Assembly (NCBI RefSeq): GCF_000025525.1
Contig: NC_013887.1
Span: 258,729-322,728 of the forward strand
Reading direction: 5' to 3'
Source of the DNA: Methanocaldococcus sp. FS406-22
GTDB taxonomy: Archaea > AGJL01 > Methanococci > Methanococcales > Methanocaldococcaceae
DNA length: 64,000 nt
Within the stretch, counting starts at the first letter, position 1. Each line of letters begins with the position of its first letter. This document shows positions 17,882 through 21,310 of the stretch, in pieces. The position numbers and the translations under genes are program-made. The notes under the pieces were generated by a model. That model was not told the DNA's origin. It worked only from the letters and a program-made list of their open reading frames with translations, and searched no databases.

Positions 17882-18373
17882 TCACCTTAATATTATGGCA
17901 TTCAATGGACATAGTTCCTCGCATCTTCCACAGAGCTCACACTTATTTATATCAATTCTTATTTTGCTTCCATATTCTTCAATGGCATTAAATGGACAAT
18001 TCCTTAAACAAACTAAGCAAGAGGCACATCTCTCACTTATATACTCAATGAATTCATACTTGTCCACTTCAATAATCCTTGCATCTTCATTAATTTCACA
18101 TCTTAATCTTATTATTACAATTGCGTTCGTTGGGCAAACTTTTTTGCATCTTCCACAAAATACACATTTTTCTTTGTCAATAACTATAAATAAACCATCT
18201 TTGCTATAAGTTATTGCATCAACTGGACAAATCTCAATGCATTTTCCACAGCTAATGCATTTGTCCTCTTTAACAATAATTTCCCTTTTATTTAAAATAA
18301 TATTAAATTTTGGGAGTAATTGAATATTTTTATCAGCCAAATTAAAATGTTTAGCTATTATTTCCTTTATCAT
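17882..18373 (-). CDS. Eha hydrogenase ferredoxin-like protein, four [4Fe-4S] motifs
   Basis: A 163-residue iron-sulfur protein with four complete CxxCxxCxxxCP motifs (CISC, CVFC, CASC, CELC). The first 33 residues carry no cysteines. It lies between two polyferredoxin genes, overlapping the upstream one by 23 bp. It is therefore part of the electron-supply arm of the Eha complex, facing the cytoplasm. The ATG at 18373 follows GAGGGAG. It may correspond to the N-terminal part of the ten-cluster EhaQ-type polyferredoxin of other methanogens. Confidence 0.85.
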   Translation of the reverse strand: MIKEIIAKHFNLADKNIQLLPKFNIILNKREIIVKEDKCISCGKCIEICPVDAITYSKDGLFIVIDKEKCVFCGRCKKVCPTNAIVIIRLRCEINEDARIIEVDKYEFIEYISERCASCLVCLRNCPFNAIEEYGSKIRIDINKCELCGRCEELCPLNAIILR

Positions 18374-19568
18374 ACAACTCCCTCTTCATTTCCTTTATTC
18401 TTTTGTTTTCCTCATAAACTCTCTTCTTTAACTCTTCTTTTAACTTTTTGAGGGATAGTTTTTCGATTTCTTCCTTAACCTTTCCGTACTTCTCAGTATA
18501 TAAGATTAAATCTGCTTCAATACTTTCGATTATCTTATCTTCTATTATTCTAACTTTAACTGCCTCTTCTGCCTCTTCTGGCTTGACTATTTTTATAGCC
18601 TCAACAGGACACTCCCTTGCACATGCTCCTCCTCTAACACATAATTCAGGAACAATATATGGCAATTTTGTCTCTTTACTGATTTTAATAGCTCCTGCTC
18701 CACAAACCTTATAGCAGATTCTACAACCAATACATAAATCTTCATCAATAACATAGCAAATATCCTTCCTCTTTGAGATTATAGGTTTATAAATCCTTAT
18801 TGCTGTGGTTGGGCAGAGTTCTATGCATAGACCGCATTTCACACATTTAACAACTTTCTTCTCCTTCAAATCAATCTCTCCTACACATACATCTTTACAG
18901 ATTCCACAACTTATACATAAACCATTAACAATATGTGGAATTTCCTCAATAGCATTTTCCTTAATTTCTAATTTTCCGATAGTTTTCTTGTTTTTAATTT
19001 CAAAAGCTTTATCTATTTTTTCTTTCAAAGTTTTTTCGTCAAATATAATTATGGCGTTTTCAATTGGGCAGGCCTTAACACATTCTTTACATGAGATACA
19101 CAAAGCCATATTTATTACATACTTCCCCTCTTTACGCTCAATTACATTGATTGGGCAAGCTCTTTCACAGTTTCCACATCTAACACACACTTCCTCATCA
19201 ATTATAAGATTATGATATTTAGGTTTATCAAAAAATAGTCCTTCTGTTTCAATTCTATGCTTATCCATCTCCAAAACTCCGGTTGGACAAACCTCAACAC
19301 AGTTGGCACAAGCTATACATGAACCCTCATCAAACACTGGGAGATTTTTGTTATACTCCTCACTATATACCATCTCAACTGCAAAGGCTGGACAACTCTC
19401 TTTACATGCCTCACAAGATATACATTTCTCAGGAAATTTAACAATTGGAGGGATTTTTCTATATCTCTCTGGAGGGATGTAGGAACTTTTATCTGATTTT
19501 GCATCAATAAATCTCTTAATCCACTTTTTCCTTGCAAATTCATAAAGATACCAAAGTGATGATGCCAT
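18351..19568 (-). CDS. Eha hydrogenase polyferredoxin, eight ferredoxin motifs (last one degenerate)
   Basis: A 405-residue polyferredoxin of the Eha energy-converting hydrogenase. Seven complete cluster motifs are visible (CISC, CIAC, CVRC, CISC, CISC, CVKC, CIGC). The eighth reads CVRGGACARECP, with Gly in place of the second Cys, so it may hold a [3Fe-4S] cluster or none. The C-terminal 70 residues are a charged, Lys/Glu-rich coiled-coil-like tail. The ATG at 19568 is set by AAGGTGATTCTT. A duplicate of this exact start region (site, ATG and nine codons) lies 118 bp further upstream; see the repeat at 19542-19699. Confidence 0.85.
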   Translation of the reverse strand: MASSLWYLYEFARKKWIKRFIDAKSDKSSYIPPERYRKIPPIVKFPEKCISCEACKESCPAFAVEMVYSEEYNKNLPVFDEGSCIACANCVEVCPTGVLEMDKHRIETEGLFFDKPKYHNLIIDEEVCVRCGNCERACPINVIERKEGKYVINMALCISCKECVKACPIENAIIIFDEKTLKEKIDKAFEIKNKKTIGKLEIKENAIEEIPHIVNGLCISCGICKDVCVGEIDLKEKKVVKCVKCGLCIELCPTTAIRIYKPIISKRKDICYVIDEDLCIGCRICYKVCGAGAIKISKETKLPYIVPELCVRGGACARECPVEAIKIVKPEEAEEAVKVRIIEDKIIESIEADLILYTEKYGKVKEEIEKLSLKKLKEELKKRVYEENKRIKEMKRELYDKGNNS

Positions 19569-19699
19569 AAGAATCACCTTATATTAATTTAAGAGGCATC
19601 ACCGAGCGTAGCGAGGTGATGCATCCCGGGTATACCAATAGGACGAAGTCCTATGGTCTATAAAGATACCATAATGAGGAAGCCATAAGAATCACCTTA
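19542..19699. repeat. Palindromic element with duplicated gene start (polyferredoxin)
   Basis: A 40-bp direct repeat: 19542-19581 holds the real ribosome binding site, ATG and first nine codons of the polyferredoxin gene, and 19660-19699 is a second copy. Copy two would encode MASSLWYLY, the same peptide; the coding differences (codons 2, 3 and 5) are all synonymous. It then stops, giving an 11-codon mini-ORF (19651-19686, minus). Between the copies are two hairpins: GCATCACC ... GGTGATGC (19596-19622, loop GAGCGTAGCGA) and ATAGGAC-GAA-GTCCTAT (19638-19654). Confidence 0.8.
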
Positions 19700-19725: not shown

Positions 19726-20859
19726 TTAAAATTTAAGATTAATATTAATTGGAATCTCTTTGCCATCTTTTATTGCAACTATACATCTCTCTGTGCATGA
19801 AACACATGGGTCGATACTTGTATAGGCAGAGATTGCATCAGCTACTGTTGGACAGGTCTTTAACATATATTTATATGCTTCTAAGTTCATAACAGTAGGA
19901 GTTCTAATCATTATCCTCTTTATTATCCCTCCATCAGTAATTTCCATCCTGTATGTTACCTCCCCCCTTGGAGCTTCATTTCTCCATTCTCCTTTTCCAC
20001 CTTTAATCTCTGCCTTGACCCTTATATCTCCAGAGCATTCCTCATATAGCTCCAAAGCTTTTCTAATTAATCTAACGCTCTCAATAACCTCCTCATGCCT
20101 TACCATCATCCTTGCAAAGTTATCTCCTTCCTCCCTCCACACTGGCTTAAATTTTAGCTCTTGATATGTTGAATGCCTCAATCTCCAATCACTCTCTGGC
20201 AATCCAGAACCTCTACAAACCGGCCCTACAGCTCTTGTTCTCATAACTTCATGATATGGTAAAATACCAATTCCTTTACTCCTTAAAGCAATTAACGGCC
20301 CTGTTTCAAAAACCTCTATGATATTTTTTAGCTCTTCCTCAAAGATGTCAAGTTTTTTATAGATTTCATTCATCATTTCTCTATTTATATCTCTCCTAAC
20401 TCCTCCAATAACATTATAACCCATGTTAACCCTATTTCCAGTAATCATCTCCATCAAATCCATAATTATTTCCCTAACATTCAAAAGCCACATAGCAAGT
20501 GTTTCATGTTCAATAGATAGATTATAAACAGCTGAAGCAATTAAATGGCTATGTATTCTTTCCAACTCACAGGTAACTACCCTTAAATACTTTGCTTTAT
20601 CAGGAATCTCTATCTTTGATATATGCTCAATGCATTCAGCAAACGTCATCGTATGAACATAAGAGCAGATGCCACAAACCCTCTCAGCTAAATAAATTCC
20701 CTTATGGCAGTGTTTCCCTTCCATAATCTTCTCTATACCTCTGTGCACATAACCCATTTCAATTTCAGCATCAACTGGTCTTTCTCCATCTAAGACAAGT
20801 TTAATCCTTAACGGTTCTTTTAATACTGGATGAATTGGCCCTATAGGAATTGTTGCCAT
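19726..20859 (-). CDS. ehaO: Eha [NiFe]-hydrogenase large subunit
   Basis: Catalytic subunit of the energy-converting hydrogenase Eha, which uses the sodium or proton gradient to reduce ferredoxin with H2, an anaplerotic supply of reduced ferredoxin for methanogenesis. The four nickel-binding cysteines are present: RVCGIC (Cys62, Cys65) near the N-terminus and DPCVSC (Cys352, Cys355) near the end. The protein continues for 22 residues after the second pair, as in Ech/Eha-type large subunits. The ATG at 20859 follows GAGTGAAAAT and overlaps the small-subunit gene; an upstream in-frame ATG at 20871 is possible. Confidence 0.92.
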
Positions 20860-20863
20860 ATTT

Positions 20864-21310
20864 TCACTCATCTCTATTTTTTAGTTTTTTCTCTCTCATT
20901 GCTATTGCCTTAGGAGCAACTTTTAATATTGTCTCGATAATCTCAGAAGGTCTTGGAGGACAGCCAGGAATCTTTGCATCCACAGGAATTACTTTATCAA
21001 CTCCTCCAACTACATGCCCCTCCTTAAAAATCCCTCCACTTAATGCACAGGCTCCAACAGCAACAACTATCTTTGGCTCTGGTGTCTTCTCATAAATCTC
21101 CTTCAATCTCTCTGCCCATTGTAAAGTTACAGGCCCTGTAATTAGCAAAACATCTGCCTCTCTTGGATTGTTATGCACATAGATTCCATACTGCTCTATA
21201 TCATATCTTGGAGCTAAGCAGGCGACTATCTCAATATCGCATCCATTACAACCACCAGTGTTAATAACACAAACATGTATTGACCTTTTTCTAAGGAATT
21301 CCTTTACCAT
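20864..21310 (-). CDS. ehaN: Eha [NiFe]-hydrogenase small subunit
   Basis: Small subunit of the Eha hydrogenase, related to NuoB of complex I. It binds the proximal [4Fe-4S] cluster: Cys21 and Cys24 in [11 protein letters not shown], the third Cys in VGACALSGG (about residue 90) and the fourth in IPGCPPRP (about 120). At 148 residues it is the short, soluble Ech/NuoB type without extra clusters. The start follows GGAGGAG, directly after the preceding gene. Confidence 0.93.

Follow-up and report, generated by a model that had tools for sequence, protein, structure and literature searches.

The stretch analysed here (the window, 64,000 nt) contains on its minus strand a polyferredoxin gene whose start is present twice, with a hairpin-forming element lying between the two copies. 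The features of the locus are as follows.

18351..19568, minus strand: polyferredoxin gene, 405 aa, intact, start codon at 19568-19566 (open reading frame list; Fer4 domains in Pfam)
19542..19581, minus strand: inner, functional copy ('R'), continuous with the gene body and comprising the ribosome site, ATG and first 9 codons (direct repeat)
19596..19622, minus strand: second hairpin, a right-hand module of type A (GCATCACC-TCGCTACGCTC-GGTGATGC, then CTCTTA), from sequence and predicted fold, with arms that covary in other copies
19635..19656, minus strand: first hairpin, HP1 (CCATAGGACTTCGTCCTATTGG with a bulged T, then TATACCC), the hallmark of the family (sequence, fold, family comparison)
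19657..19659, minus strand: AGA, 3 extra bases between HP1 and the outer copy, also present in genomes G013 and G007 (genome comparison)
19660..19699, minus strand: outer, abandoned copy ('L') of the ribosome site, ATG and 9 codons, reading MASSLWYLYRP-stop (direct repeat)
19726..20871, minus strand: upstream gene for a hydrogenase large-subunit-like protein (Complex1_49kDa; open reading frame list, Pfam)

A repeat search of the window returned the two starts as 40-nt direct-repeat copies (19542-19581 and 19660-19699) with 90% identity and a spacing of 118. On the minus strand the gene begins AAGGTGATTCTT-ATG-GCA-TCA-TCA-CTT-TGG-TAT-CTT-TAT, and both copies encode MASSLWYLY, as a sequence-only reading of this DNA had stated. 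They differ at 4 bases in 3 codons (GCA/GCT, TCA/TCC and CTT/TTA), every difference being synonymous, and show no difference in the 13 bases 5' of the ATG that hold the ribosome site and leader. The palindromic element noticed earlier between the copies was also recovered, as a 73-nt stretch predicted to fold into two hairpins (-28.7 kcal/mol, z = -4.66 against shuffles). Genes for complex-I-like hydrogenase subunits adjoin the polyferredoxin gene on the same strand. The Complex1_49kDa gene (19726..20871) is probably in one operon with it, and we take this operon to be the Ehb operon of methanogens.

The window contains a single occurrence of the hairpin core CCTATTGGTATACC. Comparison of 14 genomes of the genus, in which G000 denotes the genome of the window, showed that the hairpin CCATAGG..CCTATTGGKATACC is a member of a modular family, of which a Methanocaldococcus genome contains up to about 50 copies. 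With at most one mismatch, the core CCTATTGGNATACC was found in about 20 copies in G000 and in up to 50 in other genomes of the genus (about 50 each in G001 and G004, 1 in G003), and a reversed-pattern control gave 2 matches in G000 and 0-3 per strand over the genomes. The HP1 stem is kept despite changes in its inner sequence (GC, AGG, GGC, GGGC and others), further complementary bases are present in 142 of 159 HP1 copies, and the arms of the commonest second stem covary (TTGCC/GCAA, CTGCC/GCAG, TCACC/GTGA, TCATC/ATGA). At least five interchangeable modules were found to the right of HP1, and one insertion site carries different right-hand modules in four species (L081, L111, L157 and L065). 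The elements are 44-220 nt long and non-coding; most have a single HP1, while some have HP1 inverted at both ends (L134, L136, L069). In G001, two 155-nt composite copies (L128:977-1131 and 1855-2009) lie inverted, 97% complementary and 723 nt apart, with a hisA-like gene between them. The idea that larger composites (L128, L129) carry a gene of their own was rejected, as the genes between them are all housekeeping genes (hisA-like and others).

An Rfam search of six loci found tRNA alone and no match to the element, and a 14-mer scan of the genome contigs gave matches that were mostly due to chance. No transposase linked to the family was found among the 14 genomes, PF01797 occurring only in G000 and G013. 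The G000 gene (L275; G000:C1:1030333-1030686) is an intact Y1 (IS200-type) transposase, the G013 version is broken, and none is present elsewhere. This transposase was rejected as the mobiliser, being absent from both G001 and G004 despite their abundance of elements. Literature searches, with subscription journals mostly outside their coverage, returned no description of the family, which, with its unusual target duplications, is apparently undescribed.

Duplication of gene ends is a property of the family. We examined 88 sites in G000, G004, G001 and, for a few, G002, using stretches targeted around element copies. A gene start, a gene end or a tRNA 3' end is present as direct repeats at 48 of these sites, one copy abutting HP1, with a median copy length of 37.5 nt (range 22-81 nt). 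The duplicated parts are mostly gene 3' ends, together with some starts and the 3' ends of 3 tRNA genes, and the intact gene usually stands on the module side of the element. G005 and G006, added for sample size, contained few true gene-end duplications. Relatives have an empty site at most loci, and elements that finish in an inverted HP1 copy or some other intact end have repeats flush with both sides (L134, L136, L114, L119). Flush repeats and empty sites are the anatomy of insertion with a long, variable target duplication; to our knowledge, duplications of such length and variability are unusual among known prokaryotic transposition. In two cases, L110 and L079, the intact copy has its stop codon at the element and the native C terminus is retained by the other copy, as expected for insertion into a gene. 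Gene ends may predominate because an insertion would persist only if its duplication restored the gene. Between the intact copy and the right module there are often 10-25 nt unlike the other flank, which plain target duplication does not predict; a longer target duplication hidden in these spacers was rejected (identity 0.26 versus 0.30 for other loci). The duplication at polyferredoxin is the visible tip of this larger family and no one-off.

Several sites have features of their own. Where a tRNA 3' end is duplicated beside an element (L077, L114, L119), the spare copy has T at the invariant C of the T-loop in 3 of 3 cases. In G004, HP1 supplies the stop codon of an intact gene (L098; AGC CCA TAG) and so alters the C terminus of the protein. 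Two gene-end copies in G001 (IQRYIDEKCKLLGL-stop; L129:887-931 and 1192-1236), separated by a larger composite whose 228-nt unit is present twice in identical form, have 9 base differences, all synonymous.

The outer copy at polyferredoxin might also be functional in place, encoding a leader peptide (MASSLWYLYRP-stop) that regulates the operon together with the hairpin, and its intact ribosome site and start, its short frame and the hairpin directly after it are what such a device would have. We nevertheless consider this highly improbable: most duplications in the family are of gene or tRNA ends, which cannot yield a leader, and the outer copy is missing from 11 of the 14 genomes. In addition, the reading frame of the gene-end copies has no constant phase relative to the HP1 ATG, for which reason in-frame translation of the copies from that ATG was rejected as well.

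Those 11 genomes have a single polyferredoxin start, that is, an empty site, so the gap proposed for checking is not common to all relatives. G013 and G007 have the same architecture as G000 and the same junction, TAT-AGA-CCATAGG, but a different right-hand module and spacer; TATAGACCATAGG is the junction common to the three. The polyferredoxin tree groups G000, G004, G013 and G007 in a single clade (support 98/95), so that one gain and one loss, in G004, suffice, and the insertion is probably old, preceding the split of G000, G013 and G007. Both G000 copies carry GATTCTTATG, and the C of the ribosome site (GATTCTT) is absent from the other 13 genomes, which indicates a recent history in the G000 lineage common to both copies. 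G013 and G007 each have two identical copies, and the sequence differs from one genome to the other, which indicates concerted evolution. A similar pattern was observed for L135 and its G011 counterpart; the copies at the shared loci L079/L142 and L152/L267 are without concerted evolution. At L079/L142 and L081/L111/L157 the copy-specific bases beside HP1 are shared and the modules differ, and modules seem to be exchanged in place.

The sequence-only reading had proposed that an allele from another lineage was carried in with the element, on the ground that drift would not keep the peptide in an abandoned copy. At polyferredoxin, the base unique to both G000 copies and the concerted evolution in G013 and G007 speak against such an import. 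Polarising by relatives suggested that CTT (Leu) arose in the functional inner copy and GCT in the outer one, TCA/TCC being unpolarisable; since the CTT change falls on the inner copy, the abandoned copy has changed at only 1-2 codons, and the four differences are insufficient alone to argue against drift at this locus. A better match of the outer than of the inner copy to an empty-site allele was seen with G001, from which the outer copy differs by 1 and the inner by 2 synonymous codons in 7; to the sister species G004 the outer copy is slightly the poorer match (outer 4, inner 3). One copy here may be an imported allele, with no indication that it arrived with the element, and import with the element is unneeded. 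The unique base and the concerted evolution point to a local duplication with homogenisation, rather than an allele delivered with the element.

Across the family, 61 of the 127 codons that differ between copies differ nonsynonymously, a share of 0.48 (locus bootstrap 0.38-0.59), or 0.41 for loci with the intact copy on the module side. The share expected if the abandoned copy were neutral is 0.62-0.70, and that between functional orthologues is 0.31-0.42. Against the neutral expectation, the observed share gave a binomial p of about 1e-3 to 1e-7 and a bootstrap tail of 0.9-2%, with loci contributing unequally and the excess weakening to a bootstrap tail of 2% when shared insertions are counted once. 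A first tally (81 synonymous:106 nonsynonymous) was set aside, as it was contaminated by non-coding ends. Polarised changes (nonsynonymous:synonymous) were 31:29 in the abandoned and 11:26 in the functional copy (Fisher p = 0.04), synonymous changes being hard to polarise at such divergence. Abandoned copies thus decay less than neutral drift predicts, and the earlier argument about drift holds family-wide. A plain long target duplication with neutral drift and no rewriting, under which the all-synonymous pattern at polyferredoxin would be chance, is already disfavoured by this share and by the absence of differences between the two copies in G013, and likewise in G007, long after a common insertion. 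Chance could account for a polyferredoxin outer copy with so few changed codons, and some abandoned copies are clearly decayed (L103b and the G001 counterpart of L106); overall, we regard this explanation as improbable.

Within-genome gene conversion cannot yield a share of 0.48, because the abandoned copy is free again after the last conversion; exchange with element-free functional alleles, or hybrid origin, could. Since either of these fits the family-wide share, import is kept as a serious rival. In its strongest form, each element would be a splice junction between chromosomes of different Methanocaldococcus lineages and the duplicated ends two functional alleles. At polyferredoxin, the outer copy would be native and the element and inner copy derived from a related lineage, or the reverse, for example when repair synthesis on incoming DNA halts at HP1 and is followed by end-joining. 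The copies would then differ as two functional alleles do, and indeed they differ at 33% of codons (species at 29-40%), with a synonymous divergence of 0.19-0.24 per codon (0.18-0.35 between species). Conservation of abandoned copies at the protein level, proper yet different C termini on both copies (L108, VAKEL/VAGKL; L131; L142), spacers beside the intact copy unrelated to the other flank, and all-synonymous differences at L080 (6 codons in the coding part) and L129 are likewise consistent with a chimeric origin. On the other hand, greater distance from the sister species would be expected of a foreign copy, and neither copy clearly shows it; the ribosome-site base unique to G000 is in both copies; concerted evolution is evident in G013, G007 and G011; and abandoned copies contain frameshifts and missing stop codons and exceed functional copies in amino-acid changes. 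We therefore judge a chimeric junction at the hairpin unlikely, though worth serious attention, and its extension to every element slightly less likely again. If true, the hairpins would be sutures for interspecies gene flow rather than ordinary transposons.

The explanation that we favour, and hold to be reasonably probable, is a non-autonomous insertion element with a long target duplication, whose outer copy was rewritten by recombination with functional sequence. On insertion into the 5' end of the polyferredoxin gene, a modular, hairpin-forming element would have copied about 47 bp of target, namely the ribosome site, ATG and 9 codons. The gene would thereby have been restored beyond the element and have escaped disruption. 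The right-hand module would have been swapped after insertion, and G004 would have lost the element cleanly via recombination between the direct repeats. The peptide of the outer copy may have been kept via rewriting from the inner copy or from alleles that lack the element, in this lineage or a related one. Family-wide, some exchange with functional alleles probably occurred, and recombination with element-free alleles, possibly those of other lineages, is likely for part of the abandoned copies.

Small palindromic repeats are common, and if insertion duplicates 20-80 bp of target and thereby spares genes, this would explain their spread through a genome packed with coding sequence. The paired gene ends form a molecular record in which synonymous and nonsynonymous differences measure recombination, gene conversion and gene flow, and this record applies to hyperthermophilic archaea, among them the model species M. 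jannaschii.

The elements resemble REP/BIME sequences (RAYT, IS200/IS605-type Y1) in their short, imperfect, bulged palindromes, many copies, composite and inverted arrangements and position mostly at gene borders. Among known IS200/IS605 members, insertion entails no larger target duplication (PMC2817692), whereas the Methanocaldococcus elements have 22-81 nt duplications abutting HP1, and, unlike in REP/RAYT systems, most of the element-rich genomes are without Y1 transposase (PF01797 in 2 of 14). Like MITEs, they are small, non-coding, non-autonomous and repeated, with empty sites in relatives; HP1 is inverted at both ends in some copies, and most copies have one HP1. MITE target duplications are short and fixed in length by the parent transposase, whereas those described here vary, and no parent transposon was found. 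Integrative elements such as phage 21/e14 at icd and those of archaeal integrases rebuild the end of a tRNA or protein gene at the att site. There too, the end is rebuilt on one side and a displaced copy left on the other, with synonymous differences between them, and tRNA 3' ends are among the Methanocaldococcus targets; these targets, however, are tens of unrelated genes, and the elements are too short for an integrase. The WHO elements of yeast encode a homing endonuclease and integrate into the end of a gene, which a diverged copy then makes whole. Although the Methanocaldococcus elements encode nothing, they share with WHO elements both the insertion into gene ends and the restoration of those ends by a diverged copy.
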